From Algoriphagus machipongonensis (GTDB taxonomy: Bacteria > Bacteroidota > Bacteroidia > Cytophagales > Cyclobacteriaceae), in the NCBI RefSeq assembly GCF_000166275.1, contig NZ_CM001023.1, forward strand, positions 1,925,001-1,989,000: 64,000 nt of DNA. Reading direction: 5' to 3'. Under the pieces are notes generated by a model. It was not told the DNA's origin. It did no database searches and was given only the letters and a program-made list of their open reading frames with translations. Shown here one piece after another: positions 11,194 through 63,103 of the stretch (within the stretch, counting starts at the first letter, position 1; every line of letters starts with the position of its first letter). The translations under genes and the position numbers were made by a program.

Positions 11194-11240
11194 TGGATTG
11201 CTGTTAGATTTAAAATAAGCCAAATTGTATAAATATTTTC

Positions 11241-11390: not shown

Positions 11391-11447
11391 TTCCCTTAAA
11401 TTGTCTTTTCAATAAAAACCGGAATAATATTAAACCTTAACTGCTAT

Positions 11448-12116: not shown

Positions 12117-12137
12117 CATAGTATAATCTTATAAAGC

Positions 12138-13486: not shown

Positions 13487-13508
13487 AATGACGTTAACCT
13501 TCTAGATT

Positions 13509-13556: not shown

Positions 13557-13579
13557 GATAGGGTTGAACGTGAAAAAAT

Positions 13580-13610
13580 GCCTCTAGAGCTATTCTAGGG
13601 GCTTTTTTTT
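13580..13610 (+). terminator. Intrinsic terminator after the sugar module
   Basis: Arms gcctctaga (13580-13588) and tctaggggc (13594-13602) form nine pairs, one of them G-U, around a 5-base loop, followed directly by eight T at 13603-13610. It closes the DUF1080/oxidoreductase unit. Confidence 0.9.
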
Positions 13611-13665
13611 GTGGCACAAAACTGGAAAACAAAAGCCTGTTGGAAAGCCACCAAAAAGAACAATT

Positions 13666-43000: not shown

Positions 43001-43181
43001 GCTACTCAATAAAATCAAAGTTAAAAGCCTTGATTTATACGTGTCCGGAGATAACCTTTTGTCATTTAACAAATTGGGTATTTACAAGAAAATCATTGAT
43101 CCTGAGCAATCTGATTCTTTGGGAAGTTTCACCTTGCCTGTATTACGAACATATACTTTCGGTGTACGGATAGGTATCTAA
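40011..43181 (+). CDS. susC-like: SusC/RagA-family TonB-linked outer membrane transporter
   Basis: 1056 residues. Signal peptide (MKNFTRKYYLLLILFLCVGHVYAQD), an N-terminal carboxypeptidase-regulatory-like domain (about 28-110; ISVNGRTSIEVTLGED), the SusC linker VVVVGYGTQEKSEVTGAVSVV at about 112-132, the plug domain with LSIRGFGSPLVIVDGIE, and the long 22-strand barrel ending in TYTFGVRIGI. It imports oligosaccharides across the outer membrane using TonB energy, together with the SusD lid encoded next. Co-located sulfatases suggest a sulfated substrate. The gene name is by family, not by orthology to Bacteroides thetaiotaomicron SusC. Confidence 0.95.
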   Translation: MKNFTRKYYLLLILFLCVGHVYAQDIQVSGTVIDGASGLSLPGVNVIEASSKESGAINGVATDANGKYSITVPSDAVLVFSFLGYESQEISVNGRTSIEVTLGEDESQLDEVVVVGYGTQEKSEVTGAVSVVKMDENVQIPATNVKNLLAGNASGLLTNQNPGLPGADNSDLSIRGFGSPLVIVDGIESYLDRLDPNDIETITVLKDASAAIYGARAGNGVILVTTKRGKAGVTDVNYHGYIGFQQATVFPEQSNAAEYLEMSRAGAFNRQYDPTDPSKEINYGEFTEEFLEEYRNGTRQSYDWVKDLIRTGGSKIASHNVSARGGSEKVRYYVSAGVLNQDGIFNGDYDYKKFNITNNLDADISKDLVLSITTSYINETRDYAADGTGAIWTALRTAQPFFQTELPDPDRVPYSGFTERSPRAGTQKKFSGYNLTKLETIAAAFELKYNVPFVPGLTLGGKVNARFRKLYNERLNKPYDVFQYVPETDEYIFRGNVSDNNFRKEYYGDPQRRILSRVYLDYQKIFNEKHKIGFLAFAEKEQNEDNTLFAQRRNLLSPNIPQISAGDDALTTTGGNGVPVEYSRISFAGRLNYAFDEKYLLQATLRADASSKFSPEVRWGYFPSISAGWNMHQENFLMNNSFIDQLKWRVSYSQTGIDSNVGNTAFEYLSGFSELNTVYYFAQGIPTTPIQTVGLPNELITWEETTLYNTGIDFAFLRGQVYGSFEGFYRKREGLLRIPLEGLPSTFGANLPQQNLDSRSDRGFEFNLGYKTQVGKVKFDIAGNFTYARQKYEKYQEDIDVTDPNQVRIDQNSGNFVNRTFGYVTDGLINSQQELETYISSHSFETLNGSPQVGDIRYVDVSGPDGNPDGVINRFDIQQIGYGALPEINFGLNLSVAYEGFSLRTLWQGGSRFNVNVNGFYRNPFDNQAVSLKIHNQYSWVQDPSNPGIGSNPNAELPAFNDNGSRPWNNYLSDFWYKDATYIRLKSAVLNYSFNKALLNKIKVKSLDLYVSGDNLLSFNKLGIYKKIIDPEQSDSLGSFTLPVLRTYTFGVRIGI

Positions 43182-43226
43182 CAGGAAGAAATGATTGGAT
43201 TTGTTAAACAAATCACTCTAAAAGAA

Positions 43227-44984
43227 ATGAAAATGAAAAAAATATCAATACTATCAGTTTTTGCAATTTTGACCTTCGCTACATCTTGCGTGGAAGAATT
43301 GACTAAACAGCCGGATTTTATTTCAGAAAATCAGGTCTTTGAAGATCCTAATCTGACTAATTCTTATGTGGCAAATTTATACCAGAGAATTGGGTTTCAG
43401 CGAGGGGTAAATGTATCAATGGCTACCAAAAATGCCGTAGGAGGGGAAAACATTGGTTTTGCACCTTGGCAGGAGCCAAATGGGACATCTACACGACAGT
43501 TTACAGAAGTGACAGGGCCGGGAGCCTTAGACGAATGGGACTATAACGTGGTCAGAGATATGAATTATCTCCTTGAAAATATCACCGAAAGCGAAACTTT
43601 GGACGAGCAATTTGTCGAAGAAAAAATCTCAGAAGTAAAGTTTTTAAGAGCATTTGAATACTTCGAAATGGTTAAAAGATTCGGGGGAGTTCCTTTAGTA
43701 TTAGAGGTGCAGTCAGCCGATCAACCAGAAGAAGAACTGTATGTAAGCAGAAATTCAGAAGAGGAAGTTTATGATTTTATCTACTCTGAGACTCAGGAGA
43801 TCTTAGCGAATTTTGACGATTCCAAAACTGGTGCAGGAGGAAAAGTGGATAAATATACGGTCTTGATGCTACAAAGCCGAGCGATGCTTTATGCTGCAAG
43901 TATTGCCAAGTATGGAGATGGAAGTTCAAATGGTGTTGTGGGGATTCCCTCTGGAAGAGCAGCAGAGTTTTTTCAAAAAAGCTACGATGCTTCCAAGCAA
44001 ATTATCGACTCTGGAATGTTTAGATTGATCAATGACGGAGAGGATAAAGTAGCGAATTATGCTTCCATTTTCGTTAACGACGGGAATGATGAAACGATTT
44101 TTGCAGAGGTATTCGAGCCATTTTTGAAAGGTCATGATTGGGATCACTTGGCTATCCCAGCTGGATTTAATGCTACATGGAATTCCAATTTCCCTGTACT
44201 TTATGAAATGGTGGAGCTTTTTGACTTCACAGATGGAAGAAGTGGGATGATCGATAGAAGTTTATTTACTAATTCCACCGAATGGGATATAAATGACTTT
44301 TTTGGAAATCGAGACCCCAGATTCAGAGCGGCAGTATTTTATCAAGGAACTCCATTTCAAGGGAAAAAAGTGTATTTCCATTCGGCAACAATTTATGATG
44401 ACAATGGAACCATGAAAGAGTCAACGTCTGAAGGCCAGACATTCACCACGATCGATGGGGAAAGTTTCCCTGGAGCCGCTCCCAGAAGAAATCGTGTTAA
44501 CACAGGTTTATTGTTGAGAAAGAGAGTAGACGATAACGCATTGACTCCTCAGTACGGAAGTTCTGGGCAGGATTTTATTGTCTACCGATATGCGGAAACA
44601 TTATTGAACTACGCTGAGGCCGCAATGGAATTGGCCAAAGCATCGGAGGCGATGGATGCGATCAATCAAATTAGAGACAGGGTTTCTATGCCATTATTCG
44701 AAAGTATCACTTTGGAGGATATTCGTCATGAACGCCAAGTGGAGTTATGTTTCGAAGAACATAGATATTTTGATTTGGTGAGATGGAGATTGGCAGAGGA
44801 GAAGTTAAGTCTCAGAACTCAAGGGATCATTTTGAAATACAATTTGGAGACAGATAAGTATGTGATCACTTTGAAAAATGCAGAAAATCAGATCCGTGTA
44901 TTCGAACCTAATCGATACTATTTGCCCTTTGGGATCAACCGATTGGCAGATAATTCCAACCTGGTACAGAATCCTGGGTATTAA
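43227..44984 (+). CDS. susD-like: SusD/RagB-family glycan-binding lipoprotein
   Basis: 585 residues from ATG 43227, which gives a lipoprotein signal (MKMKKISILSVFAILTFATSC, acceptor Cys21); ATG 43233 would also work, while the ORF start at 43191 adds a stretch unlike a signal. Helical TPR-like parts and the C-terminal SusD signature DFIVYRYAETLLNYAEAA plus IRHERQVELCFEEHRYFDLVRW are clear. It is the surface lid that binds the glycan and hands it to the SusC partner upstream. The two genes are 45 bases apart. Confidence 0.95.
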   Translation: MKMKKISILSVFAILTFATSCVEELTKQPDFISENQVFEDPNLTNSYVANLYQRIGFQRGVNVSMATKNAVGGENIGFAPWQEPNGTSTRQFTEVTGPGALDEWDYNVVRDMNYLLENITESETLDEQFVEEKISEVKFLRAFEYFEMVKRFGGVPLVLEVQSADQPEEELYVSRNSEEEVYDFIYSETQEILANFDDSKTGAGGKVDKYTVLMLQSRAMLYAASIAKYGDGSSNGVVGIPSGRAAEFFQKSYDASKQIIDSGMFRLINDGEDKVANYASIFVNDGNDETIFAEVFEPFLKGHDWDHLAIPAGFNATWNSNFPVLYEMVELFDFTDGRSGMIDRSLFTNSTEWDINDFFGNRDPRFRAAVFYQGTPFQGKKVYFHSATIYDDNGTMKESTSEGQTFTTIDGESFPGAAPRRNRVNTGLLLRKRVDDNALTPQYGSSGQDFIVYRYAETLLNYAEAAMELAKASEAMDAINQIRDRVSMPLFESITLEDIRHERQVELCFEEHRYFDLVRWRLAEEKLSLRTQGIILKYNLETDKYVITLKNAENQIRVFEPNRYYLPFGINRLADNSNLVQNPGY

Positions 44985-45020
44985 ATAGAAAATTGTTTAT
45001 AGGATAGATAATTTTGGGTT

Positions 45021-45053
45021 AAAATCCTGAGAGGCTCTCTCAGGATTTTTTTT
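45021..45053. terminator. Bidirectional terminator between susD and the hybrid regulator
   Basis: Arms aaaatcctgagag (45021-45033) and ctctcaggatttt (45037-45049) pair perfectly over 13 positions around a 3-base loop, with a T8 run to 45053. It ends susC-susD transcription and overlaps the end of the minus-strand regulator gene. Confidence 0.9.
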
Positions 45054-48000
45054 ATAACTTGGTGAGTTCCTCAAGGATTTTTTCAGGATCTCCCGATTTA
45101 GCTTCTCTTTTAAATTGTGCAGGGGTTTTGCCAAACTCTTCCTTAAAGCATTTTGAAAAATATTTAGAATCATTGTATCCCACCATATAGGCTGCTTCCG
45201 ATATTCTATACCCATTTTTTATGATCAAGGAAGCCGCTCTTTTTAATTTGAGAATCCTATAAAACTCCAAAAGATTTTTACCTGTGATCTCCTGGCATTT
45301 TCTGAATATCACAGAATAACTCATGTGCATAGTTTGAGTTAAATCCTCTAATTTGAAATTTGTATTTTCAATCTGATCGTTGAGTTCCGACACCAACTTG
45401 TCAATAAAAATATCATTCTTTGATTTCATTTTATCCATTTCCGGTTCGGTTACTACGGAGGTTTTTACCCTAGCAAAAGTCTTCCTTTTATGCTCCAACA
45501 GATTGGCTACTCGAATTGATAATTCCAATGGGTTGAATGGTTTTTGGATATAATAAATCGCACCACTACTTAGTCCAAGCATTCTGGATTCAGTGTTGTT
45601 TTTGGCGGTCAAAAGTATGATGGGTATATGGGAGGTCAAATTGTTTTTGATCAATACTTTACTCATTTCAATCCCATTCATAATGGGCATCATTAAGTCA
45701 CTAATAATTATTTCAGGCATAAAATCATTGACAATTTCTAAAGCAACTTTACCATTATCCGCCAAAGCAATCTGGTATTGGTCTTGAAAATACTCTTGTA
45801 AGAATATCTGCATTTCCACATTGTCTTCCACAATCAGGATTTTTGGTAGATCTTCTTTGGCTTTTTTAGTGTGTTTTTTTTCTGAAAACCCTGGGTCAGG
45901 TTCTTGTATTTCAAGATTGTCTGCAGGAACAATGTCTGCTTCAACCATCTTTTCGTCTTGAGAATAGGCGCTTTCATTTGTTGGGATTGTGACCACAAAA
46001 GTGGTCCCAACGTTTTCTTCAGACTCCAAAGAAATAGTACCATGATGCAATTCGACCAGTTCTTTGGTCAATGCCAAACCTATCCCCATTCCATTTTTAC
46101 TTTTACCAGAGGCGGTTTGATAGTAGATTTCAAAAATCTGACTTTTATCATTTTCAGAAATGCCGACACCGGAATCGCTCACTGAGATTTTCAATAAATC
46201 TTCTTTGGGACTGAACTCAGCTAAAAATGAAATCTCCCCGCCTCTTTTTGTAAACTTAAAAGCATTGGATAAGAGATTGTAAAATATGTGCTCGATCTTC
46301 TTGTAATCGTACCAAACGATAACTTCCTGATCCGGAATCTCCAGATGAAATTGAATGTCCTTAAATTCTGCTTGATCAGTGAATGAGAAACCGATTTTTT
46401 TTAGCTCCTGAAAAATATCTTTCTTCTCTACCTGCAGTTTCAGTTTCTTCAATTCCTTATCCCGAACAGTCATCAAATCGTTGGAAATCCTCGAAAGCCT
46501 TTCCGCGTTATTTTGAATAATTTTTAAACGTTGTTCTAAAAGTTTATTTCCATTTTGGGTAGCTCTATTGACCATGTCCTTCAAAGGAGCCAGAATTAAA
46601 GTCAAAGGAGTTTGGATCTCATGTGACATTTTAGCAAAAAAGTTCATTTTGAGTGCATAGAGCTCTTTTTCCTGATTGTAAACTAATTCTTCACGGATAA
46701 TTTTATTCTTGAAGTTTATCCAATAATAAAGTCCGATGATTGAAAGTATGAATAGCAAAAAGTAGAAAGCATAGGCCAGGTTTGATTTCCACCAGTACGG
46801 AGCAATTGACACTTCAACCTGTTTGACAGGGATATTCCAAACTCCAGCTTTGGAACCAGCCCTCACCTCAAAAGTGTAATTACCAGCTGGAATATTAGTG
46901 TAAATCGCTTGATGGGAACTTGTGGGAGTTATCCACTCATCGTTAAATCCAACTAATCTATATTCATATCTAAAGTCAGAATTCAATGTGTTTCCAATGG
47001 CACTGAATTCAAAACTAAAGGAGGACTGATTTGCTTTTAAATCCAGTTTATTAAAATTTTCCAATCCATCTTTCAGTTGCTCAGGAATGATAGACTGTGC
47101 TGGTTTATTCAGAACTTCAACTCGTTTGATAAATAGCTGTGCTTGATTTTCACTTTTTTGTAGCGAGCTAGGATAAAAAGCTGTAACACCTAAAGAACCC
47201 ATGAAATAAAATTTACCCGATTCATCTACATAGATGCTTCTTCTAGGGTATCGCATTTGTCTAACCCCATCAGATTGGTCAAATGCAGTAAGATTTTCCT
47301 TGATAGGATCAAATGAATAAATCCCATCCAAGGTGCTCAGCCAAAGTAAGCCTGTTTCTTGATCTACTTTTACCTCAGAAATAATTAAGTTTTTTAGACT
47401 TTTGTGATTAGCATAAGATTGAAAAGTTAAATTCTTAGTGTCCAGTTTGATGATAAATCCGGATAGAGTTCGGATCCAGATGTTGTCACCCACTGTACTA
47501 AAGGAACTGATGGAATAATCGTAATTATCATCTTCCGTTTGGTCAAAATAAGGAATCAACTGGAAGGTTGACTGCGTTAAATCGTCTTTATTTTCATGGA
47601 ATTTAAAAAGGCCACCATGGTAGGTTGCGACCCAAATTTCACCGTTTGGGGATTCAGCTATGTAATCTGAAATCGATCCAACTAATCCGGATGGGCCACT
47701 GAAAGCAAAAAATGCCATTTTTTCACCATTTGGGGAGAAGACATGGATGCCTAAATTGGAGGCAGCCCAAATCCTGTTTTGTTTGTCCCTGTACAGTTTT
47801 CGAACATCATAAGTGGCCAATCCTTGATTGTCAGATATTTCTTTTTTCGTGAATTGGTTGTTTTTAGGGTTATAGATAAACAAACCATTTTGATAGGTGC
47901 CAATCCAGATATTGGAATCCACATCTTCGATCATCGTTTGGGCATACCTTCCCTGAAAAAAGTAGGGTGGTTTTTTCTCGAAATCATATGAAATACTTTC

Positions 48001-49191
48001 TCCTTTTGGAGATACTTTGGTCATTCCATTTCCGTCATTTCCAAAATAGAGGGTTCCATCTTTGGCCTTGAGAACAGAAATGACTGCAGTAGGAGTTTCA
48101 TCATCTGAACCGATATAATACTCTAGACTTTTTCTATAATTTGGGAGAATATCGATTAGGCCCCACTTCTGGACGGTCCAGATATTTCCATACATGTCTT
48201 CTTTAATCTCCAAAACGGTATTGGTGGCTAAAGAAAATTGATTATTGATCGAATGTGAGAAATTGGTAAATGTTTCATTTTCAGGGTTAAATAAATAAAG
48301 CCCATCTCCATCTGATCCTAACCAAATTTTCCCTGACATATCAGCATAAATAGACCTAAACATGGGGTACTGAAGCCCGTTGTTGACCTTATAGTCAAAA
48401 TGCTTGAACTCTTGACTTGCTATATTGTACTTAAAAAAGCCTTGGTTTTCACTGGAAATCCACAAATTTCCTTTTTGATCATGGGTAAGTAACGGTAAAT
48501 CCACCAAGGATTGATTTAGTGGAGTTTGTAATTCCAGAAGCTCATCGCTTGTAAAAGAGTAACCAAAGATTTTAGAACTTCTGGTACTTATCCAAAGTTG
48601 GTTTTCATCAGAAAAATCCAGTAAGTGAATTGATTTATAGGCCTCATTATATTGAGGTAGAACTGCTATTTGCTTTAGCTCATCAGTCTTATAATCATAG
48701 GCAAAAATATATCCCGAGTTAGTAGCGATCGCTACACGGTCACCTTTTGTGGCAATGGCAGTAATGTTGGGACTATTAAATGAAGTAAGGAAATCGGAAA
48801 ATACTTTAACATCTCCTGAAGAAGAAACTTTTGCCAATTCACCTCCTAAAGTGCCAATCCAAAGAGAGCCTCTGGAATCGATGTTAAATTTGACTTTTGA
48901 GCGATTGATAAAGGATTCCCCAAAAAAATTGCTCAGCGGAATATTTTGAAAATCATAGCCGTCGTATTTGTTTAACCCATCGCTATCTGTGATCCAGATA
49001 TAGCCATAGGGGTCCGTTTCTATAAGGGAATTTGAGCTGAATGATTTCTCTAAATGGATGAAGTTAGAAGCAGTTTGGCCGTACGAAAACTTCAAAGGAA
49101 GCAGCCAAAAGAGCGTCCCTATAAACAATGCAAAGGTGCAGCGAAGTCCTTTCTTTTCCACAAGTTGAAATTTAATGATGAAAATCGACAA
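45052..49191 (-). CDS. Hybrid two-component system sensor-regulator (HTCS)
   Basis: 1379 residues combining a whole signalling path. Order: signal peptide (to about 39), many two-component propeller repeats (WISTRSSKIFGY, GKIWLGSDGDGLYLF and others) forming a periplasmic sensor, a Y_Y_Y domain, one helix at 804-825, a HisKA domain with FFAKMSHEIQTPLTLI (His857), an ATPase domain (LLSNAFKFTKRGG and DSGVGIS), a receiver domain with phospho-acceptor Asp1165 in IIISDLMMP, and an AraC-type DNA-binding domain (ISEAAYMVGYNDSKYFSKCFKEEFGKTP). HTCS proteins sense oligosaccharides and turn on the adjacent utilisation locus, here susC-susD and the sulfatases. Confidence 0.96.
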   Translation of the reverse strand: MSIFIIKFQLVEKKGLRCTFALFIGTLFWLLPLKFSYGQTASNFIHLEKSFSSNSLIETDPYGYIWITDSDGLNKYDGYDFQNIPLSNFFGESFINRSKVKFNIDSRGSLWIGTLGGELAKVSSSGDVKVFSDFLTSFNSPNITAIATKGDRVAIATNSGYIFAYDYKTDELKQIAVLPQYNEAYKSIHLLDFSDENQLWISTRSSKIFGYSFTSDELLELQTPLNQSLVDLPLLTHDQKGNLWISSENQGFFKYNIASQEFKHFDYKVNNGLQYPMFRSIYADMSGKIWLGSDGDGLYLFNPENETFTNFSHSINNQFSLATNTVLEIKEDMYGNIWTVQKWGLIDILPNYRKSLEYYIGSDDETPTAVISVLKAKDGTLYFGNDGNGMTKVSPKGESISYDFEKKPPYFFQGRYAQTMIEDVDSNIWIGTYQNGLFIYNPKNNQFTKKEISDNQGLATYDVRKLYRDKQNRIWAASNLGIHVFSPNGEKMAFFAFSGPSGLVGSISDYIAESPNGEIWVATYHGGLFKFHENKDDLTQSTFQLIPYFDQTEDDNYDYSISSFSTVGDNIWIRTLSGFIIKLDTKNLTFQSYANHKSLKNLIISEVKVDQETGLLWLSTLDGIYSFDPIKENLTAFDQSDGVRQMRYPRRSIYVDESGKFYFMGSLGVTAFYPSSLQKSENQAQLFIKRVEVLNKPAQSIIPEQLKDGLENFNKLDLKANQSSFSFEFSAIGNTLNSDFRYEYRLVGFNDEWITPTSSHQAIYTNIPAGNYTFEVRAGSKAGVWNIPVKQVEVSIAPYWWKSNLAYAFYFLLFILSIIGLYYWINFKNKIIREELVYNQEKELYALKMNFFAKMSHEIQTPLTLILAPLKDMVNRATQNGNKLLEQRLKIIQNNAERLSRISNDLMTVRDKELKKLKLQVEKKDIFQELKKIGFSFTDQAEFKDIQFHLEIPDQEVIVWYDYKKIEHIFYNLLSNAFKFTKRGGEISFLAEFSPKEDLLKISVSDSGVGISENDKSQIFEIYYQTASGKSKNGMGIGLALTKELVELHHGTISLESEENVGTTFVVTIPTNESAYSQDEKMVEADIVPADNLEIQEPDPGFSEKKHTKKAKEDLPKILIVEDNVEMQIFLQEYFQDQYQIALADNGKVALEIVNDFMPEIIISDLMMPIMNGIEMSKVLIKNNLTSHIPIILLTAKNNTESRMLGLSSGAIYYIQKPFNPLELSIRVANLLEHKRKTFARVKTSVVTEPEMDKMKSKNDIFIDKLVSELNDQIENTNFKLEDLTQTMHMSYSVIFRKCQEITGKNLLEFYRILKLKRAASLIIKNGYRISEAAYMVGYNDSKYFSKCFKEEFGKTPAQFKREAKSGDPEKILEELTKL

Positions 49192-49527
49192 ATGCTTTGA
49201 CGCTTGAAAGCGAAATCAAATTAGTAGGAGGAATAGGTGTAGATTAGCGAATGTCTTTTCCTCAAATTAAAGAAATATTAACCAAATGCGGATAAACTAA
49301 TTTTTTTAAAAGGTAGAGAAATTGATCATTATTAGTAGAATGGCTTGTTTGATGCTTTTAAAAGGCATTTTTAATTCAGAATTTTAGCTAAATAAGCATT
49401 GGGATACCAATTGAGCATTTTGACATTTCACTCAAGTTTTTCTTGCAGTGAAAATTTAAAGGTGTTAGTTCATAGGGTATTTTATATTTTAAAAATTGAT
49501 TGTATTCAAGGAATCTATTCATAAAGA
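49192..49527. other. Divergent regulatory region between HTCS and the first sulfatase gene
   Basis: 336 bases between divergent starts, with no ORF of note. An imperfect palindrome ATGCTTTTAAAAGGCAT lies at 49352-49368 and a short hairpin GCTT/AAGC at 49203-49212. Promoters for both genes and a regulator site for the HTCS AraC domain are expected here; I cannot identify them from one copy. Confidence 0.45.
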
Positions 49528-51093
49528 ATGAAAAAGCAACTACTTCAAACAGCCCTCTTAATTACAGTTTTTGCATGCAGCAAACCAGAGGTAGAGGAGC
49601 AGAAGTCGGCCCAGAGTAAACCCAATATTATTTACATTTTGGCAGACGATTTAGGATATGCTGATATTGGAGCTTATGGTTCGCAAAAAATAGAAACTCC
49701 TAATATTGATGCACTTGCCAAGGAAGGAATGATGTTTACACAACATTATACCGGTGCTCCTGTTTGTGCTCCTGCCAGGTATATGTTGATGACAGGAAGA
49801 CATGCTGGTCACTCCTATATTCGTGGGAATGACCCTTGGAGGGAAAGAGGAGAAGGAGATGTTTGGGATTTTGAGCAAATGGAGAATGATTCCACTTTAG
49901 AAGGCCAAAGACCATTGCCAGAGGGAACAAAGTTGTTTCCATCACAATTACAGAAAGCAGGTTATAAAACGGGAATGATAGGCAAATGGGGGTTGGGTGC
50001 TCCCCAGACCAATTCTATCCCAACAAAAATGGGTTTTGACTTCTTTTATGGCTATAACTGTCAACGACAGGCCCATACCTATTACCCTGTTCACCTTTAC
50101 CGAAATGAAAACCGGGAATATTTAGATAATGAGTTAGTTGTTCCTGGGACGAAAATTCCAAAAGGGGCGGATCCAAACGATCCGTCTAGCTATAAAGAAT
50201 TCACTCAGCAAGATTATGCACCTGACTTGATGTATGAGGAAATGAGCAAATTCATTTCTGCGAATAAAGAAAATCCATTTTTCTTTTACTGGGCATCACC
50301 GATTCCGCATATGGCTCTCCAAGCACCTCAGAGGTGGGTGGATTATTATGTAGATAAGTTTGGAGAAGAAGAGCCCTATTTGGGTCAAGCTGGATATTTT
50401 CCACATAAGAATCCTAGAGCAGCATATGCTGCTATGGTATCCTATTTAGATGAAAACGTCGGAAAATTAGTCCAGCAACTGAAAGATGAGGGGATCTACG
50501 ATAATACCTTGATCATTTTCACATCTGATAATGGTCCGACTTACAATGGAGGAACAGATACTAAATGGTTTGAAAGTGCAAATCCTTTTCCAAATGAAAG
50601 TGGAAGAATTAAGGGACATGTTTATGAAGGAGGAATTAGAATTCCCATGATAGCCAGTTGGCCTGGGAAAATAAAAGCTGGTTCTAAATCAGAATTGATT
50701 TCTTCCCATATTGATATGGCTCAGACCTTTGCTGATCTATTAGGGTATCAAGCAATAGAAAATGATGGGATCAGTATCTTGCCAACTTTATTGGGAGAGG
50801 GTGAGCAACAAGAACATGATTTCTTGTACTGGGAATTTCCGGAAAGCGGAGGTCAATTAGCAATAAGAATGGGAGATTGGAAAGTAGTTAGACAGCATTT
50901 GAAAGATAAGAAAGAACCGACATTGGAATTGTATAATCTAAAAAATGACATCAGAGAAGAAAACAATGTGGCGGAGTTAAATCCTGAAATAATAGCAAAA
51001 GCGGATTCCATTTTTAGAATAGCCCATCAAGAATCTGAACTTCCCATGTTTAGAATTCCTCTTTTAGAAAATGGATTTACAGCTGAAAAGTAA
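49528..51093 (+). CDS. Lipoprotein sulfatase, formylglycine type (first of three)
   Basis: 521 residues of family S1. The signal MKKQLLQTALLITVFAC gives an acceptor Cys17. Metal-binding residues start with LADDLGYADIGAYGS, and the catalytic motif CAPARYMLMTGR (Cys80, CxPxR) is the site converted to formylglycine. Later motifs IGKWGLG and IIFTSDNGPTYNGG complete the active site. The enzyme removes sulfate esters from sugars at the cell surface or periplasm. The maturation enzyme (FGE or anSME) is not in the window. Within the locus it is divergent from the HTCS and presumably induced by it. Confidence 0.93.
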   Translation: MKKQLLQTALLITVFACSKPEVEEQKSAQSKPNIIYILADDLGYADIGAYGSQKIETPNIDALAKEGMMFTQHYTGAPVCAPARYMLMTGRHAGHSYIRGNDPWRERGEGDVWDFEQMENDSTLEGQRPLPEGTKLFPSQLQKAGYKTGMIGKWGLGAPQTNSIPTKMGFDFFYGYNCQRQAHTYYPVHLYRNENREYLDNELVVPGTKIPKGADPNDPSSYKEFTQQDYAPDLMYEEMSKFISANKENPFFFYWASPIPHMALQAPQRWVDYYVDKFGEEEPYLGQAGYFPHKNPRAAYAAMVSYLDENVGKLVQQLKDEGIYDNTLIIFTSDNGPTYNGGTDTKWFESANPFPNESGRIKGHVYEGGIRIPMIASWPGKIKAGSKSELISSHIDMAQTFADLLGYQAIENDGISILPTLLGEGEQQEHDFLYWEFPESGGQLAIRMGDWKVVRQHLKDKKEPTLELYNLKNDIREENNVAELNPEIIAKADSIFRIAHQESELPMFRIPLLENGFTAEK

Positions 51094-51200
51094 TTAGGAA
51101 AATGGGCAAAGAATTACTCCTAAAAACTACTTATCAACCCCAAATCTATTTGGTCAATGTTGAGAGGTGTGGCGTGATTTTGAAAAGAAAGTAAAAGTTT

Positions 51201-52850
51201 ATGAACCAGAAAAGAATAGCTTATTCGATTGTTGGATTCCTTTTGATATGCATGTTTGCATGCCAGAAGGAGGAAGTTGCTTATCCCCAAAAACCCAATA
51301 TTTTATTCGCAATCATGGATGATGTGACCTATATGCATATGGGCGCCTATGGTTGCGAATGGGTTAACACTCCTAATTTTGATCGGATTGCCAAAGAAGG
51401 AATACTTTTTCAAAATGCTTATACACCTAATGCTAAGTGTGGGCCCTCGAGATCAAATATTCTAACAGGAAGGAACTCATGGCAACTGGAAGAAGGGGCG
51501 AATCATTGGTCTTATTTTCCCTCTAAATTTAAATCATTTGCAGAATCACTTTCTGAACATGGATATCATGTAGGGTATACTGGTAAAGGATGGGCTCCGG
51601 GCGTGGCTAAAAATGAAGACGGTAGCGCAAGAGATCTCCTAGTTAATAGGTACAGTGAAATTAAATTGACTGCACCCACTGCCAATATCAGTAATGTTGA
51701 TTATGCAGCAAACTTTGATGTGTTCTTAAAGGATAGAAATGAAGACGAACCTTTTTTCTTTTGGTATGGTGGATTGGAGCCCCATCGTGGATATGAATAT
51801 GGTTCTGGAATTGCCAAAGGAGGCAAAGAAGTCAGTCAGATTAAAGATGAGGACATTTATTCCTTTTGGCCAAAAGTAGATTCCGTTAGAACAGATTTAT
51901 TGGACTATGCCTTTGAGATAGAGCATTTTGATAAGCAACTGGGGAAAATGCTCGATCAATTGGAAGCAGCAGGGGAGTTGGAAAACACACTTATCGTGGT
52001 GACCTCTGATAATGGAATGCCATTTCCGAGGGTTAAAGGACAGGAGTACGAATATTCAAACCATCTTCCATTGGCAGTGATGTGGCCAGCCGGAATTAAA
52101 TCCATTGGAAGAACGGTGGAAGATTTTGTGAGTTTTATAGATTTTGCACCTACATTTTTGGAATTGGCAGGAGTTTCTGAGGAACAATCCGGAATGGAAA
52201 TGATCACTGGCAAAAGCTTAACGGACTTATTTTTCGCAGAAAAGGGTGGTAAAATTACTGAGGATAGAAATCAGGTGTTTATTGGAAAGGAAAGACATGA
52301 TGTAGGAAGGCCTGAAGATCAGGGGTATCCCATCAGAGGAATTGTAAAAGATGGAATGTTGTATTTAAAGAATTTCAAGCCTGATCGCTGGCCAGCAGGA
52401 AATCCTGAGACCGGGTATCTAAATACAGATGGGAGCCCTACCAAAACTGTTGTTTTAAACAGCATTTATCAACCCAATACATTTAAATTCTGGAAAGAGT
52501 CTTTTGGAAAAAGAGAAGAAGAAGAGTTTTATGATATTGCGAATGATCCGGAATGCTTGAATAATCTTGCTTCAGACGAAAAATACCAGGAAAAGCTAAA
52601 GGAAATGCGTCTGGAATTAATAGCTACTTTGACTGAGCAGGGAGATCCAAGAATGAAAGGAGATGGGAATTTGCTAGAATCTTATCTTTATTCGGATAAG
52701 AGTGGAGTTAATTTTTATGAGCGATATATGAGCGGTGAAAAAGTAAATTTTGGTTGGGTAAATGCCTCGGATTTTCAGGACCTATCCAAAATAGAAACCT
52801 ATCAGCAAATGAAAGATGGAGGAAATGCCATCACAATAGAGAAAAAGTAA
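51201..52850 (+). CDS. Lipoprotein sulfatase, heparan-N-sulfatase-like (second of three)
   Basis: 549 residues. The lipobox CMFAC places the lipid Cys at residue 21, followed by QKEE, a pattern that matches lipoprotein surface-export signals in Bacteroidota. Metal site AIMDDVTYMHMGAYGC and catalytic CGPSRSNILTGR (Cys80, CxPSR) are intact; the NSWQLEEGANHW continuation resembles the heparan N-sulfatase group of S1. VVTSDNGMPFPRVKG is the second metal segment. Target is likely a different sulfate position than the neighbours. The next gene begins on the last base of its stop (TAATG). Confidence 0.92.
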   Translation: MNQKRIAYSIVGFLLICMFACQKEEVAYPQKPNILFAIMDDVTYMHMGAYGCEWVNTPNFDRIAKEGILFQNAYTPNAKCGPSRSNILTGRNSWQLEEGANHWSYFPSKFKSFAESLSEHGYHVGYTGKGWAPGVAKNEDGSARDLLVNRYSEIKLTAPTANISNVDYAANFDVFLKDRNEDEPFFFWYGGLEPHRGYEYGSGIAKGGKEVSQIKDEDIYSFWPKVDSVRTDLLDYAFEIEHFDKQLGKMLDQLEAAGELENTLIVVTSDNGMPFPRVKGQEYEYSNHLPLAVMWPAGIKSIGRTVEDFVSFIDFAPTFLELAGVSEEQSGMEMITGKSLTDLFFAEKGGKITEDRNQVFIGKERHDVGRPEDQGYPIRGIVKDGMLYLKNFKPDRWPAGNPETGYLNTDGSPTKTVVLNSIYQPNTFKFWKESFGKREEEEFYDIANDPECLNNLASDEKYQEKLKEMRLELIATLTEQGDPRMKGDGNLLESYLYSDKSGVNFYERYMSGEKVNFGWVNASDFQDLSKIETYQQMKDGGNAITIEKK

Positions 52851-54412
52851 TGAAACATTTAAGAATCAAGGAGATGATAAAAATCCAAAGCATAATTTTT
52901 ATAGGGCTTATTTCAGTATTTTTTAGTTGCTCCTCCAAACAAGGAGAAGAAAAAATTGCGGAAAGCTCCAAGCCGAACATTGTGATCATTTACATGGATG
53001 ATTTGGGTTATGGAGACATGGGAGCCTATGGAGCCACTGAGATAAAAACTCCAAACATGGACGCCTTGGCAACGGGAGGGATGAAGTTTACCAATGGCTA
53101 TGCTTCTTCAGCTACATGTACACCTAGCAGATATGCGATTTTGACGGGGACCTATCCGTGGAGAAATAAAGATGCTAAGATCCTTCCAGGTACCGCTCCT
53201 TTGATAATTGATACGGCTCAAATGACTTTACCTAAATTACTGCAAGAGCAAGGGTACTATACAGGTATTGTTGGAAAGTGGCATTTAGGATTAGGAAGGG
53301 GAAATGTTGATTGGAACAAGCACATCTCTCCTGGTCCAAATGAGGTGGGATTTGACTACAGCTATATTTTAGCAGCCACACAAGACCGAGTACCCACAGT
53401 TTATATTCAGGATGGTAAGGTAGATGGTTTAGATCCGAACGACCCAATTTTGGTGGATTACTCAAAAAATTTTGAAGGAGAACCAACCGGCAAAGAAAAC
53501 CCAGAATTATTGACAATGAAATGGCACCATGGCCATAATAATAGCATTGTAAATGGGATACCAAGAATTGGGTTTATGAAAGGTGGAGAGTCTGCAAAGT
53601 GGAGTGATGTAGATATGGCAGATCACTTTTTAGAGAAAGCTCAGGCCTATGTCAAAGAACATAAGGAAGACCCTTTCTTTTTATATTATGCCTTGCAGCA
53701 ACCTCATGTGCCAAGAACTCCAAATCCAAGGTTTGTGGGTAGTTCTGGACTTGGCCCGAGAGGAGATGTGATAGTAGAGGCAGATTGGATGATAGGTGAG
53801 TTTATCAAAACTCTGGAAAATGAAGGCTTATTAGAGAATACATTGATTATTTTCTCTAGTGATAATGGTCCAGTTCTGAATGATGGTTATTATGATAATG
53901 CTGTTGAAATGAATGGGAATCATACACCTGCGGGCCCATTGAGAGGAGGGAAATACAGTCTTTTTGAAGCAGGCACAAGAGTTCCTTTTATTACTTATTG
54001 GAAGGGGAAAATTCAGCCAGGTGTTTCTGATGCCATGGTTTCTCAAATTGACCTGATGAATTCTATTGGTGCCATGTTAAATAGTGATCAAAAAGGAGAA
54101 GATAGTGAGAACCTATTGGAGACATTTTTGGGGAAATCAAATCAGGGCAGAGAAGAATTAGTTTTGGAAGCCACCGGAAGATTAGCCCTTCGTAAAGGAG
54201 ATTATGTGATGATTCCTCCGCATAAGGGAGCGGCCAAAATAAGTACCGTAAACATCGAAATAGGTAATGATCCTGAAATTCAATTGTATGATTTAAAATC
54301 TGATATCGGGCAGCAAAACAATATTGCAAAGGATAATCCAGAAGTTCTTAATGAAATGATCCAAGACTATGAGAGGATAATAGGGACCCCAGTTTCCCTG
54401 ACAGTCAAGTAA
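52850..54412 (+). CDS. Lipoprotein sulfatase, formylglycine type (third of three)
   Basis: 520 residues from ATG 52850, which overlaps the previous stop by one base; a longer ORF from 52754 would run inside the upstream gene, and ATG 52874 would remove eight residues ahead of the signal. The lipobox SVFFSC gives Cys27. The metal site is YMDDLGYGDMGAYGA and the catalytic motif CTPSRYAILTGTYPWR (Cys90, CxPSR); IVGKWHLG and FSSDNGPVLNDG are the other conserved parts. Closer in sequence to the first sulfatase than to the second. Translationally coupled to the second. Confidence 0.93.
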   Translation: MKHLRIKEMIKIQSIIFIGLISVFFSCSSKQGEEKIAESSKPNIVIIYMDDLGYGDMGAYGATEIKTPNMDALATGGMKFTNGYASSATCTPSRYAILTGTYPWRNKDAKILPGTAPLIIDTAQMTLPKLLQEQGYYTGIVGKWHLGLGRGNVDWNKHISPGPNEVGFDYSYILAATQDRVPTVYIQDGKVDGLDPNDPILVDYSKNFEGEPTGKENPELLTMKWHHGHNNSIVNGIPRIGFMKGGESAKWSDVDMADHFLEKAQAYVKEHKEDPFFLYYALQQPHVPRTPNPRFVGSSGLGPRGDVIVEADWMIGEFIKTLENEGLLENTLIIFSSDNGPVLNDGYYDNAVEMNGNHTPAGPLRGGKYSLFEAGTRVPFITYWKGKIQPGVSDAMVSQIDLMNSIGAMLNSDQKGEDSENLLETFLGKSNQGREELVLEATGRLALRKGDYVMIPPHKGAAKISTVNIEIGNDPEIQLYDLKSDIGQQNNIAKDNPEVLNEMIQDYERIIGTPVSLTVK

Positions 54413-57793: not shown

Positions 57794-60700
57794 ATGGCAA
57801 ATCTCAAAATTAAACTCAAAGGACAAGATCATTCTCAATTTCTAACTGGAGAGGATCAAGGTTTTGAATTATACAATTTAGATCAAGCTTTTTCTGTTTT
57901 GAACCCTACTCGAGGAGATGTTCCAGAGCACTCTATTGATATCGATGATGATAAGATCATTGAATTTGAGTTTGATGACGATACGGTTTGGATTGGGGAT
58001 CAGGAGTCTCTGAGAGAAATTTTTCCTTCACAGTTTAAAAGATCTGGAGATGGTGAAGAGCTTTATTTGCCTGATGAAATAAGTTCCGATGAGTCTGACA
58101 GAGGCATAATCAAGAAAATAGGGATAAAGCTCTTGAAAGTTTTTGTAAAGAAGAAAGTCATCCGTCCAAAAATGCGGGATTTGGCCTTCAACTTGGAAAA
58201 CAAGCAATTAGCTTTTTCCGGTCATGATTTTGAAAAGGTTAAATATGGGGTTCTTTGTCATTGTGATAAGGAATTTGAACTTACGGTAGCCAAGGGATTA
58301 GATCCAAAAAAGCGGCACTTACTTTTTTTACATGGAACGGGATCTTCTACCAAAAGCTCATTCGGAGATTTAAAAGACTCTGAAGGCTATAATAACTTGG
58401 TGACGGATTATGGGACCGAGCAAATTATAGCTTTTCAACACCGTACTTTGACTACAAGTCCTTTGGAAAATGTGCTGGAATTAGTAGGCCAACTTCCATC
58501 TGGAATAGAACTGGATTTATTAAGTCAGTCTCGAGGAGGTCTTGTAGCAGATGTTTTAGCCAGATTCTGTGCAGATGGAAATGGTTTTGGACCAGAAGAA
58601 AAAGGAGTTTTAATCGATAATGATCGAGAGCGCGATCTTGAAGTTATTGAGGAACTCAAGTCCTTAATGGCAAATAAAAATATTAAAATCAGAAAGATGG
58701 TTCGAGTTGCCAGTCCTGCAAACGGGACCACTCTTGCCTCTAAGAGATTGAATATCTTTTTAAATGTCACCTTTAACCTAGTTGGCTTGGCAACTGGACA
58801 GGCAGGCAATCCGGTTTTTATTGCTTTTAAAGAGATGATCCTTGAAGCCGTTTCCTGCAAAGATGATGTAGATGTATTGCCAGGATTGGAAGCGATGAAC
58901 CCAAAATCACCATTTATCAAGGTGTTGAATTACCAAGGTTCAGAAATCGTTATTTCGGCACCATTGTTTGTGGTAGGAGGAAGTAGTGAGCTTAGCCTTC
59001 GATTTAAAAGTTTGGTAGTATTAGTAGGTAAGTTTTTCTTCCTGGACAAAAATGATTTGGTAGTGAATACCGAAAGCATGAAATGGGGTGCCATTAGGGA
59101 GCCGGGCAATGTTTCTATTTATATAGAGAAGAGTGGAGCCATAGACCATTTTAAATATTTCTGTACTGACAACACCCTTAAGGCAGTCATTGATGCATTG
59201 GATGTAGAGGTAGGGAAAGTGCCAGACCAATTCTTGATCCAAGAGAAATCAAGCAGTCTTGAGCGGGGAGCTCTTGGCCTGGAAGGGGGAGATTATAAGC
59301 GAGAAAAAATCACTGGAGATAAGCCAATTGTAATCATGCTACCAGGAATCATGGGGTCTAATCTTCGTGATGATAAAATGCTTTGGATAAATTATTTCAG
59401 ATTTTTGAAAGGAGATCTTTCCAAACTACAATACCAAGGAGGAAAACCGGAGAAATTGAGTGCTGATTCTTTGATCTCAACATCCTATAAAGATTTAGGA
59501 GAAAATCTGGAGAAGACTTATGATGTATTGACTTTTCAATTTGATTGGAGATTGCCCCTTCAGCAAAGTGCCAGCATTCTAAATGAAAAGGTAAAGGACC
59601 TTCTCAAATTTGAACAGCCGATTAAGATTGTTGCTCATAGTATGGGGGGAGTTCTGGTTAGGGACTTTATTCTTTACTATCCAGAGACTTGGAAGGCATT
59701 AAATTCTTCTATTGGCTTTAAGGCAGTTTTTCTAGGATCCCCTCTTGGAGGTTCATACCGAATCCCGTACGTATTATTTGGCAAAGACAGCATCATTCGT
59801 CTTTTAGGCAAAATAGATATCAGGCATTCTACCAAAGATCTATTGAAAGTATTCTCAGATTTCCCTGGAATTTTGAATTTGTTGCCGATCGGTAAAAACA
59901 ACAAGCATGATTTTTCAGACAGGAATTTCTGGGAGAAACTTCGGGCAGCATCTGGAGATGAGTCTTGGCCTATTCCTTCTAAAAAGGTATTAGATGAGTT
60001 TGCCAAACATCAAGAACTGGTGTTGAAAGAAGCTGAATCGATTGATTATAAAAATATATGCTACATCGCAGGACAAAGCAGTAAAAAGAATTTTACCGTT
60101 TGTGATTTGGATATTGTGGAGGGTGAGTTGACCTTTTATGCGACCAATGCAGGAGATGAAAGCGTGACCTGGGCTTCAGGAATTCCCGAAGGTATCAGAA
60201 AGTTGGGGCAGTACTATTATGCGAATGTCACCCATGGTGGGCTTTCCAAAGACAGTAAGCTGTTTGCAGCTATTGAGGATTTATTGATTTATGGTAGTAC
60301 ATCGAAAATTCAAAATAGCCTACCGAGCGTAAGGGGAGAAGAAAAGGATTTTGTGGCTGTAGAGACGGAACCATTCGACATCAGTGAAGAAAATGTGATC
60401 AATACCCTACTTGGAGTTGATTATGGAGAAGATAAATGGAAAGTAGAAACTCCGATTAGAGTAAGCGTCAGCCATGGTGATTTGAAATATGCTAAATACC
60501 CTGTGCTTGCCGGTCATTTTGAATACGATGCTATTCTTACCACAGAAAGATCCATCGACCGACAATTGAATGGCGAATTAAATAGATTGCTTCAAATGGG
60601 GCTTTACCCTGGGCCTATTGGAACCAATCAAATCGTACTTTCTGACCCTAATTCAAACTCAACTTTTAAAGGTGGAATCATTGTGGGATTGGGGGTGCCA

Positions 60701-63103
60701 GGAGAACTATCTGCTTATCAATTGATGACTTCTATTGAAAAAGGAGTCGCCAGGTATTTGACGATAAGGAATCAAAATAAGCACAAAAAAAATGTAGACC
60801 CTAATAAGGATACAGTTGGAATATCAGTGATTGCTATTGCCAATAGTTATGGTGGCTTATCTACAGATTCATCTATTCGAGCCGTCATTCAGGGAATTCA
60901 AAATGCCAATAGGAGTATTTTGAACTTCTACGAGGGGAAAATAAATGGTATAGAGGAAATTGAAATTATTGAGATTTTCAATGATAAGGCACTTTCTATA
61001 TTGAAAACCGTGCAGCGTCTTCAGACCAGTGATGGCAGAGAGTTTAATATTGTGTTTCAAGGAAAAGGTCTCCAATCTAAAATCGGAAGAAGGTGGAGAA
61101 TTCCTTATGATAATTCATCTGATTGGTGGACAAGAATTACCGTTTGTGAGGATGAAGATGACGGGGTAGAAAAATTTAAGATGTCTGTTGCTACGAGTGG
61201 GGCCAGTGAAAAAGTAGAGGAAGTCTATTCAAATAACAAGACCTTAAATATTCTGCTGAATGATATGACGATGAATAATCAATATTCTCCAGAGATCGCC
61301 AAAACGATGTTTGAGCTGTTGATTCCATTAAGTTTTAAAGAGGAGTTGAAGCGTCAGAATAATATTTCATGGGTTTTGGATGTAGCTTCTGCAGCTTACC
61401 CTTGGGAGATGATTCAAGAAAATGTAGACTCAGTTCCTATCTGTATTCATTCTGGGATGGTGAGACAATTGTCCACTGGGAATTTCAGAGAAAGAACTTC
61501 CAGAGTTAAAGAGAAGACTGCCTTGGTGGTGGGAGATCCTGTTTTGGATAAGTTTATGTCGCAGCTTCCAGGGGCAAAAAGAGAAGCGGAGTTAGTTTCT
61601 GGCTTATTAAAACAAGAAGGTTTTGTTACTCAAAGTTTGATTAACAGTTCTGCTTCGGCAATATTTTTAAAACTCTTCTCTAAAAATCATAAAGTAATCC
61701 ATCTTGCTGGGCATGGTGTATTTGAATATGGACCTAAGAAATCCACAGGTATGGTAATTGGGAATGATTCATTTTTAACTCCAGGGCAAATTGCAGGGAT
61801 GAGTGAAACAGCAGAAATGGTATTTGTTAACTGTTGCTATTTAGGCCAAATGGATCAGGAATCAGAGTTAAAAAGTCAACAGCGAAATAAATTTGCGGCG
61901 AACATAGGAACTCAATTGATCAATAACGGAGCTAGAGCGGTGATTGTAGCAGGTTGGGCTGTTGATGACACTGCAGCACTGGATTTTGCGAAGTTATTTT
62001 ACCAAAATATGTTTGAAGGGATAGGTTTTGGGGAGTCTGTTAAAAGGGCAAGAAAGAAGATCTATGAAGATCATGGCAAACGAACAAACACTTGGGGAGC
62101 ATTTCAATGTTATGGAGATCCTTTTTACAAATTAATCGATGGAAGAGGAGGTCAATCAGATGACTCGGGTATCGTTGTCTTAGAAGAGGTAGAAATAGAA
62201 CTGAAAAACCTATTCCAACAAATGGAAGCCAATGATTACGATCATCAATATATTTTGAATAGAATGATCAAGTTGGAAGATTCAGTAGAAAAGATTGGGC
62301 TTAAAAGTGATAAAATTTTAGAATTAGGAGCAGGTATTTACAGTGGTCTAAATGAATATGAAAGAGCGGTCAACTGCTATCAAAAATTGCTTTCTTTCAA
62401 TAATTCGAATTATACTGTTAAGTCTTTAGAGCAGTATGGGAATGTTAGGGCTAAGCTAGCAGTGAAAAATTTCTTTGAGGGTGAAGTAAAAGGTACTGAA
62501 ACTATCAAGCTACTTGATGAAGTGGTTTCTGATTTGAACGTGTTAATACAAATTGGAGAATCTACAGAAAGGTTAAGTCTTTTGGGTAGTACTCTGAAAA
62601 GGAAGATGTTCGTGTTGAGTCAAATAGGTTCAAAAGATAGCCTTAAGACTTTAGAGGAATCCATGAAAGCCTATGAAAGGGCATCAGTTCTCAGTGGATT
62701 CAGAAACCCTTATCCACTAAATAATTGGCTTTCACTATTTAGGATTGCTTTGCTAAATGAGGGGCAAACGAGTATAAGCAAAATTCCTTTGAAGGCTAGA
62801 AAGGCATTGGATGAGATTTTGGCAAATTATTCAAAAGAGTCTAGGGATTTTTGGACCCTGAGCAATATTGCCACTATCAAACTGACACAATTGCTCATGG
62901 GAAGCCCAAAGGTAACCTTAGAGGAACTTCAAAAAGCTTATGAGGGAATTTGGTCTATGGCGGGAAATAAGGGGCAAAAGTCAGCTGAAATTGAGCACTT
63001 GTCTATTATCATTGCTTCTTTGGGATTACTTAAATCGGATAAAGTAGCGGGATTGAAGAAAGAAATTGAGGAGTTAAAAACTCAGTTAGAAAAAAAGTTA
63101 TGA
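57794..63103 (+). CDS. Giant fusion: two alpha/beta-hydrolase domains, CHAT caspase-like protease, helical tail
   Basis: 1769 residues, no signal peptide or membrane helix, so cytoplasmic. Residues 1-160: acidic, unassigned. Hydrolase 1: HGTG (180-183) and nucleophile Ser246 in SQSRGG, with DUF7379-like surroundings. Hydrolase 2, LCAT/lipase-like: LPGIMGS (516-522), nucleophile Ser616 in AHSMGG, likely acid Asp788 (AGDESVTWASG) and His814 (VTHGGLS). Residues 880-1200: unassigned beta/alpha region. CHAT domain, about 1210-1470: His1307 in HLAGHG and Cys1348 in FVNCCYLGQ form the caspase-type dyad; it ends WGAFQCYGDPFYKL. From about 1490 a helical TPR-like region. CHAT domains act as regulated proteases in conflict and cell-death systems; the combined role is inference. 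Confidence 0.88.
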   Translation: MANLKIKLKGQDHSQFLTGEDQGFELYNLDQAFSVLNPTRGDVPEHSIDIDDDKIIEFEFDDDTVWIGDQESLREIFPSQFKRSGDGEELYLPDEISSDESDRGIIKKIGIKLLKVFVKKKVIRPKMRDLAFNLENKQLAFSGHDFEKVKYGVLCHCDKEFELTVAKGLDPKKRHLLFLHGTGSSTKSSFGDLKDSEGYNNLVTDYGTEQIIAFQHRTLTTSPLENVLELVGQLPSGIELDLLSQSRGGLVADVLARFCADGNGFGPEEKGVLIDNDRERDLEVIEELKSLMANKNIKIRKMVRVASPANGTTLASKRLNIFLNVTFNLVGLATGQAGNPVFIAFKEMILEAVSCKDDVDVLPGLEAMNPKSPFIKVLNYQGSEIVISAPLFVVGGSSELSLRFKSLVVLVGKFFFLDKNDLVVNTESMKWGAIREPGNVSIYIEKSGAIDHFKYFCTDNTLKAVIDALDVEVGKVPDQFLIQEKSSSLERGALGLEGGDYKREKITGDKPIVIMLPGIMGSNLRDDKMLWINYFRFLKGDLSKLQYQGGKPEKLSADSLISTSYKDLGENLEKTYDVLTFQFDWRLPLQQSASILNEKVKDLLKFEQPIKIVAHSMGGVLVRDFILYYPETWKALNSSIGFKAVFLGSPLGGSYRIPYVLFGKDSIIRLLGKIDIRHSTKDLLKVFSDFPGILNLLPIGKNNKHDFSDRNFWEKLRAASGDESWPIPSKKVLDEFAKHQELVLKEAESIDYKNICYIAGQSSKKNFTVCDLDIVEGELTFYATNAGDESVTWASGIPEGIRKLGQYYYANVTHGGLSKDSKLFAAIEDLLIYGSTSKIQNSLPSVRGEEKDFVAVETEPFDISEENVINTLLGVDYGEDKWKVETPIRVSVSHGDLKYAKYPVLAGHFEYDAILTTERSIDRQLNGELNRLLQMGLYPGPIGTNQIVLSDPNSNSTFKGGIIVGLGVPGELSAYQLMTSIEKGVARYLTIRNQNKHKKNVDPNKDTVGISVIAIANSYGGLSTDSSIRAVIQGIQNANRSILNFYEGKINGIEEIEIIEIFNDKALSILKTVQRLQTSDGREFNIVFQGKGLQSKIGRRWRIPYDNSSDWWTRITVCEDEDDGVEKFKMSVATSGASEKVEEVYSNNKTLNILLNDMTMNNQYSPEIAKTMFELLIPLSFKEELKRQNNISWVLDVASAAYPWEMIQENVDSVPICIHSGMVRQLSTGNFRERTSRVKEKTALVVGDPVLDKFMSQLPGAKREAELVSGLLKQEGFVTQSLINSSASAIFLKLFSKNHKVIHLAGHGVFEYGPKKSTGMVIGNDSFLTPGQIAGMSETAEMVFVNCCYLGQMDQESELKSQQRNKFAANIGTQLINNGARAVIVAGWAVDDTAALDFAKLFYQNMFEGIGFGESVKRARKKIYEDHGKRTNTWGAFQCYGDPFYKLIDGRGGQSDDSGIVVLEEVEIELKNLFQQMEANDYDHQYILNRMIKLEDSVEKIGLKSDKILELGAGIYSGLNEYERAVNCYQKLLSFNNSNYTVKSLEQYGNVRAKLAVKNFFEGEVKGTETIKLLDEVVSDLNVLIQIGESTERLSLLGSTLKRKMFVLSQIGSKDSLKTLEESMKAYERASVLSGFRNPYPLNNWLSLFRIALLNEGQTSISKIPLKARKALDEILANYSKESRDFWTLSNIATIKLTQLLMGSPKVTLEELQKAYEGIWSMAGNKGQKSAEIEHLSIIIASLGLLKSDKVAGLKKEIEELKTQLEKKL

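Follow-up and report, generated by a model that had tools for sequence, protein, structure and literature searches.

The 64,000-nucleotide stretch of the Algoriphagus machipongonensis genome analysed here (NZ_CM001023.1, positions 1,925,001 to 1,989,000; hereafter the window) carries an open reading frame (ORF) at 57794..63103 on the + strand that begins with ATG and encodes a protein of 1769 amino acids (aa). ORF translation, Pfam matches, structure models and fold matches together resolved it into a beta-rich N-terminal domain, an alpha/beta-hydrolase (hydrolase 1), a phospholipase-type hydrolase (hydrolase 2), a macro/M17_N domain, a CHAT protease and a TPR-S tail. An initial annotation of this DNA had described a 1769-residue protease and lipase fusion, and the residues and motifs it had named were all found where it had placed them: Ser246 in LSQSRGG, LPGIMGS at residue 516, Ser616 in AHSMGG, His1307 in AGHG and Cys1348 in NCC.

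The domains follow one another along the + strand. The beta-rich N-terminal domain (residues 1-145, 57794..58228) showed strands in the model and no Pfam match, and part of it was recognisable in six hydrolase-less variants of the family. Hydrolase 1 (DUF7379; residues 146-475, 58229..59218) contains the triad Ser246/Asp421/His452, and hydrolase 2 (residues 509-838, 59318..60307) has an LCAT/LPLA2-type phospholipase fold with the triad Ser616/Asp788/His814. Between them lies a linker (residues 485-497, 59246..59284) modelled at a confidence score (pLDDT) below 50, within a poorly conserved surrounding stretch (471-508). A further linker (residues 860-882, 60371..60439) precedes the macro-type domain (residues 885-1085, 60446..61048); its pLDDT was below 50 at residues 860-863 and 873-882 in one model and at 860-870 in the other, and these residues sit at or near the ends of both partial structure models. 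The CHAT protease with its preceding strands (residues 1109-1451, 61118..62146) bears the dyad His1307/Cys1348, and the loop directly after the catalytic cysteine (residues 1349-1367, 61838..61894) was again modelled at pLDDT below 50. The TPR-S helical repeat (residues 1462-1769, 62177..63100) completes the chain and has the lowest identity of all domains among homologues, with a mean of 34% versus 56-65% for the macro, hydrolase and CHAT domains.

Pfam matches on the window protein were obtained for DUF7379 (E 3.7e-33) and LCAT (PF02450, E 3.5e-8), both above the curated cut-offs, for CHAT (PF12770, E 1e-29, 104.4 bits against a cut-off of 24) and for TPR-S (PF20308, E 5.8e-12, 46.5 bits against 27.6), and neither an NTPase nor a kinase domain appeared in the same scan. 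In addition to its LCAT match, hydrolase 2 matched the fold of lysosomal phospholipase A2 in its predicted structure, and the phospholipase effector Tle4, a secreted effector, was also among the fold matches. The C-terminal tail, a helical tail of sensor type as had been proposed, resembles the TPR region of ASK1; TPR-S was reportedly described in a 2020 J. Bacteriol. paper. No part of the window protein resembles a transmembrane segment (the highest mean hydropathy over 19 residues is 1.36) and, judged by eye, its N terminus is not signal-like; in the absence of a transmembrane-like stretch, the cytoplasmic location assumed in the initial annotation is likely.

The region at residues 880-1160, unexplained earlier and recommended for structural inspection as part of 880-1200, was found in the model to hold a macro-type domain with the fold of the leucine-aminopeptidase N-terminal domain. 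M17_N was absent from the Pfam listing of the window protein at E up to 1, and an assignment by Pfam on this protein alone was therefore dropped; residues 885-1085 are assigned because of Pfam matches in relatives and the fold match. One relative (P0267) scored 23.7 bits against a cut-off of 23.4, while P0275 and the other relatives tested were below the cut-off or had no match, and three short forms of the family reached 30.7, 32.8 and 33.0 bits. A custom M17N profile missed some short forms, including four loci that encode only macro and CHAT, whose macro call is based on similarity to P0202. Macro and M17_N folds occur in metabolic enzymes too.

To gauge conservation, we used the best 120 of 865 homologues, in which Ser246, Asp421, His452, Ser616, Asp788, His814, His1307 and Cys1348 were invariant (120/120, the window's own protein included). 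The CHAT dyad and both hydrolase triads are thus intact, the dyad and the triad of hydrolase 2 as first read from the sequence, and these catalytic residues mark CHAT as a predicted protease and the hydrolases as predicted lipases. All four Pfam domains were present in 112 of the 120 listed homologues (seven lacked LCAT and one lacked a TPR-S mark), so that the architecture is not a product of chance assembly, frameshift, misassembly or annotation artefact. The eight residues were also kept in 17/17 more distant long forms. In short forms, Asp788 and His814 were kept in 41/41 and Ser616 in 38/41, with Gly in its place in three aligned rows; in four Hymenobacter short forms a motif search did not find the lipase nucleophile motif. 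His452 was substituted in one of 18 single-hydrolase forms, and His1307/Cys1348 were kept in all 97 aligned rows (17 long, 41 short, 17 hydrolase-less, 18 single-hydrolase and four macro-CHAT-only). Linker 1 (471-508) is weakly conserved and linker 2 has conserved stretches; conserved linker letters were considered as a guide to cut sites, and no cut site is claimed from them. Ratios of nonsynonymous to synonymous substitution (dN/dS) went unused because synonymous sites were saturated.

Relatives with the same order of domains occur in Bacteroidota, Proteobacteria and Acidobacteriota, which bears out the recurrence that the initial annotation had put forward for checking. The window genome, a single contig of 4.79 Mb, has one copy of the gene, and the nearest named homologues among those listed are from Algoriphagus. 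Within the genus, 34 of 72 genomes matched, with 32 full-length proteins, one partial and one distant CHAT match only (rows judged by eye); among the 50 high-quality genomes, 31 matched and 19 did not. At E 1e-30, matches were found in 12 of 292 genomes of the order (nine from the genus itself, two further long forms and one short form) and in eight of 392 genomes of a phylum sample (two of the same genus, three long and three short). In two other families searched at E 1e-60, a related core was found in 13/249 genomes (12/202 genera) and 23/248 genomes (19/100 genera). The gene is therefore not essential, given its absence from 19 of the 50 genus genomes and from most sampled genera of the two families. 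Among plasmids, four records (one Ensifer and three Paracoccus yeei) covered at least 80% of the protein at one place with 28-29% identity, and an Azotobacter record covered about 80% with a gene of 5388 bases.

A search with one genome per species returned 550 relatives of the macro-CHAT core, 80 of which were kept as loci. The full-length form was found in Bacteroidota, Thiothrix, tubeworm endosymbionts, a Litoreibacter bin and an Acidobacteriota bin, and a lipase-macro-CHAT short form of about 1050 aa in many phyla, under record titles that include Nitrospira, Acidobacteria, Hymenobacter, Verrucomicrobia and Thermomicrobiales. Macro-CHAT stands alone at four loci (605-629 aa), and one protein joins hydrolase 1 directly to CHAT (L130). 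With custom profiles on a second set of 120 proteins, at most 20 had hydrolase 1 and macro-CHAT-TPR-S without lipase 2, and at most 48 were hydrolase-less macro-CHAT-TPR-S, with six more that carried part of the N-terminal domain; these counts are upper bounds because many variants were cut by contig ends or marked partial. In an 87-row tree, built quickly from rows picked by eye for completeness and containing several long branches, a TPR-S-bearing clade (62 rows) was separated from the short forms, and well-supported branches forced at least seven changes of the hydrolase-less label and at least four of the hydrolase-1-only label.

Relatives in some lineages were found in the company of conflict-type genes. 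For a count of caspase genes, 72 of the 80 loci were kept (52 short-type and 20 long-type, two of the latter hydrolase-less), and L102, L112, L117, L125, L126, L127, L133 and L153 were left out because their core gene was unrecognised or truncated. A same-strand caspase gene lay directly upstream in 16 of the 52 short-type loci and nearby in two more; the caspase model started from a single seed and some caspases may have escaped it, and with a broader set of seeds the count was 19 of 58 loci (L074-L131). A Pfam scan of 88 immediate neighbours, made without a control, identified caspase 16 times, ECF sigma four times, and nSTAND1, SIR2, TIR and patatin twice each. In five Hymenobacter loci (L092, L094, L096, L097 and L099), an Amidase_2-caspase fusion of 932-988 aa was located directly upstream of lipase-macro-CHAT, and such a fusion also adjoins the short form of L066. 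At L121, the macro-CHAT gene is followed on the other strand by a STAND-ATPase-like start (by eye), a SIR2-domain gene and a caspase gene.

Among 25 long-form loci of other families, a gene for a 411-aa protein with a peptidoglycan-binding domain was adjacent in seven, a FAD-domain gene in five, patatin in three, caspase in two and TIR in one, whereas 20 control stretches contained none of these partner families. The controls lay on the same contigs as 20 case genes, 60 kb away (40 kb once), with five case genomes lacking a control; the partner families were picked after the case loci had been viewed, a choice that favours the cases, and the seven peptidoglycan-binding-domain loci are probably related loci rather than seven independent events. 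At L291-L294, an operon-like run behind the long gene encodes a peptidoglycan-binding-domain protein, a small lipoprotein-like protein and a FAD-domain protein, and at L293 it extends to patatin. TIR, patatin and LRR-Roc-TIR genes lie near L302, together with a nucleoside-deoxyribosyltransferase match below the cut-off. At L287 a caspase gene is adjacent, and beyond it (3783-6044) is a gene for a 754-aa protein that combines caspase, serine esterase (DUF676) and TPR-S domains, a distinct construction of this design that uses a classical caspase. A conjugative plasmid of Rhizobium carries a hydrolase-less macro-CHAT-TPR-S gene (L246:6959-10417) that is followed after 33 bp by a gene for a GH108 muramidase and has TIR-nSTAND1-WD40 genes to either side. 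The Azotobacter plasmid copy (L245) is accompanied by recombinase, DNA methyltransferase, restriction subunit S and Fic genes, and the Paracoccus yeei plasmid copy is surrounded by transport and sugar genes. PADLOC results on 67 neighbours of long-type loci were mostly weak, with strong SNF2-helicase matches of one member, and were not used as evidence.

Around the gene itself, neither type III-E CRISPR genes nor a gasdermin gene were among the 10 annotated window neighbours, only one of which is downstream, no CRISPR model having been run on the genome and no gasdermin model at all. A WYL regulator gene is found upstream both in the window and for two of the three closest relatives and is missing in the closest; it was dropped as a dedicated partner. 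The initial annotation had proposed that the protein needs no partner gene, which holds for the window and the genus and fails for the wider family, in which a caspase gene adjoins 16 of 52 short relatives and several distant full-length forms lie in operon-like runs. Elsewhere in the window, a TonB-type outer-membrane protein with its SusD partner, a hybrid two-component regulator and three consecutive sulfatases (40011-54412) look like a sulfated-polysaccharide utilisation cluster, and five same-strand ORFs of 802-822 aa (1202-16068) are, by their lengths only, possibly tandem paralogues.

Comparison of 32 loci within the genus identified one site, flanked by pfkA and an amylase-like gene (both named by eye), at which presence and absence of the gene could be compared. 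The distance between the flanking matches was about 5.9-9.1 kb in seven genomes with the gene (G053, G002, G008, G020, G004, G032 and G052), and about 33-96 bp in two genomes that lack it (G009 and G005) and in four that carry it elsewhere (G030, G051, G025 and G016). These gaps were obtained by subtraction of match ends and represent selected clear cases, other genomes having intermediate gaps or other inserts.

On the computed domains, intact active sites, conservation, recurrent order and conflict-type neighbours of some relatives, we propose, with a probability of about 0.5, that the protein is a cytoplasmic, self-contained sensor-protease switch by which infection or damage turns lipases against the cell's own membrane. 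What we infer beyond these data is the trigger, how the lipases are held inactive, the step that switches them on, their lipid target and a role in defence. At rest, both serine hydrolases would be kept inactive within the large chain. TPR-S, perhaps together with the macro domain, a putative receptor for an ADP-ribose-type messenger, would detect a signal linked to infection or damage, and the CHAT protease would be switched on in response. CHAT would then cut flexible linkers or shift domains and so free the LPLA2-type lipase and its partner hydrolase, which would attack the cell's own phospholipids and bring about arrest or death. Residues 485-497 and about 860-882, as well as the loop after Cys1348 (1349-1367), could be the putative cut sites or moving hinges in the models, while low model confidence alone does not show either. 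Control of same-chain lipases by a sensor-protease switch would explain why three active sites are conserved, why the order is constant, why TPR-S is weakly conserved and why some relatives keep company with caspases, TIR and other envelope-attacking enzymes. The effector role put forward initially is plausible on the dyad, triads, sensor-type tail, recurring order and the caspase, TIR, SIR2, patatin and restriction neighbours of some relatives, and is better supported than it was from the sequence alone; release in cis and a defence role are unproven.

Several observations weigh against this proposal, and most of them bear on its defensive side. In the genus, the gene is found at several sites with no fixed partner, and the recurring neighbours look metabolic (by eye, without a family search); the 32 loci gave no caspase or TIR match and a single patatin, eight genes away, so that the neighbour check suggested initially had a mixed outcome, with no other conflict-type gene in the genus and some around relatives elsewhere. 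The caspase gene of the short forms was found in none of the 20 long-type loci, and 22 loci (L132-L153), nearly all of long type, lacked all six partner families tried. PADLOC families gave no match to the window protein at E up to 1. Phage records had no match, and viral contigs had no pattern match with the window protein and 16 with the family alignment, none of which was confirmed; a phage-borne or viral origin was accordingly rejected. In a pfkA tree of 30 genomes, taken out of 49 as those whose loci had been fetched (15 with and 15 without the gene), presence required 3 changes versus 10.4 in shuffles, which indicates clade-wise inheritance rather than rapid turnover. At the species level, this pattern argues against a rapidly moving defence-island gene, and gain and loss appear slower than we would expect of a typical defence gene. 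An envelope- or stress-maintenance protein, in which sensor and protease tune a lipase for membrane remodelling or repair without suicide, would fit the quiet genus loci, the clade-wise inheritance, the single copy in the window genome, the silence of PADLOC and the occurrence of macro/M17_N folds in metabolic enzymes; we consider it possible but doubtful, as the gene is dispensable in the genus and the two families sampled and conflict-type neighbours surround some relatives.

The repeated loss of the hydrolases while macro-CHAT-TPR-S persisted is a further point against the proposed switch, at its step of release in cis. Since hydrolase-less forms originated repeatedly, the core does not depend on having lipases in cis, and macro-CHAT is the constant part of the family, with effectors that come and go. 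CHAT might accordingly cleave other proteins in trans, the hydrolases being separately regulated passengers or second effectors. Such action in trans would suit the retention of His1307/Cys1348 in 17/17 hydrolase-less forms, the four Hymenobacter short forms without a nucleophile motif that neighbour an amidase-caspase fusion, and the hydrolase-less form with its muramidase gene downstream, but most listed members, in several phyla, keep lipase, macro and CHAT in one chain and one order, and the lipase serine persists in nearly all short forms, which make it unlikely in our view. That the protein is instead a secreted or injected antibacterial lipase, as Tle4 among the fold matches might suggest, is highly improbable for a chain that contains its own protease and sensor and has neither a signal-like N terminus (by eye) nor a transmembrane-like stretch. 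The sensor-protease switch could also be extended, tentatively, into a one-protein counterpart of the inflammasome, in which the macro domain reads an ADP-ribose-like messenger, supplied for example by TIR enzymes whose genes adjoin some relatives, the ASK1-like TPR region gates, CHAT fires and the same-chain phospholipases dissolve the membrane; elsewhere amidase-caspase or muramidase would replace or join the lipase, as parts of a general protease-gated envelope-destruction module.

With sensor, protease and lipases on one chain across several phyla and plasmids, activation is testable with one gene. If the switch is real, lipid hydrolysis would join the CHAT-controlled effectors, and the macro and TPR-S domains would gain a readable output. 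The family, with its split and hydrolase-less natural variants, is also a resource for how caspase-clan switches and effectors are exchanged.

Among known systems, one precedent is the pairing of caspase with alpha/beta-hydrolase, for which auto-proteolytic effector deployment is proposed (PMC7159879), and another is a TPR-bearing CHAT that activates gasdermin in a fungus (PMC12881547). The VMAP, EACC1 and gasdermin-CHAT conflict-system pairs likewise combine a caspase-clan protease with a hydrolase or membrane-attacking effector (PMC7159879, PMC12881547). Their effector is encoded by an adjacent gene or is a domain of another type, whereas here the LPLA2-type lipase, macro and CHAT form one polypeptide, in which Pfam found no NTPase domain. 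In the nuclease-protease pairs of phage defence, the protease unmasks a proenzyme nuclease (PMC12799240), and the title of one paper in a reference list states that TIR signalling activates caspase-like immunity. Hachiman, AVAST and caspase-nuclease pairs encode their nuclease effector in a gene of its own; the lipases described here are in cis and their unmasking is only proposed. Csx29 of Craspase (type III-E CRISPR) is a TPR-CHAT protease that works with a guide-RNA complex and cleaves a separate protein, whereas the window protein has its lipases in the same chain, its TPR after CHAT and a macro domain. The SAVED-CHAT filament senses through SAVED, in place of which macro and TPR-S are found here. 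Lysosomal phospholipase A2 and LCAT, which hydrolase 2 resembles in fold, are secreted or lysosomal single enzymes, and ASK1 shares a central regulatory TPR region with the tail of the window protein, in which Pfam found no kinase domain. To our knowledge, a protease that arms a membrane attack, as happens with gasdermins, has a separate protein as its substrate. A literature search, with subscription papers mostly outside its scope, returned no paper joining a CHAT domain with lecithin cholesterol acyltransferase and no lipase-CHAT fusion in titles or abstract openings. Relative to the known protease-switched conflict effectors, what is new here is the fusion of lipases, macro, CHAT and TPR-S in one chain.
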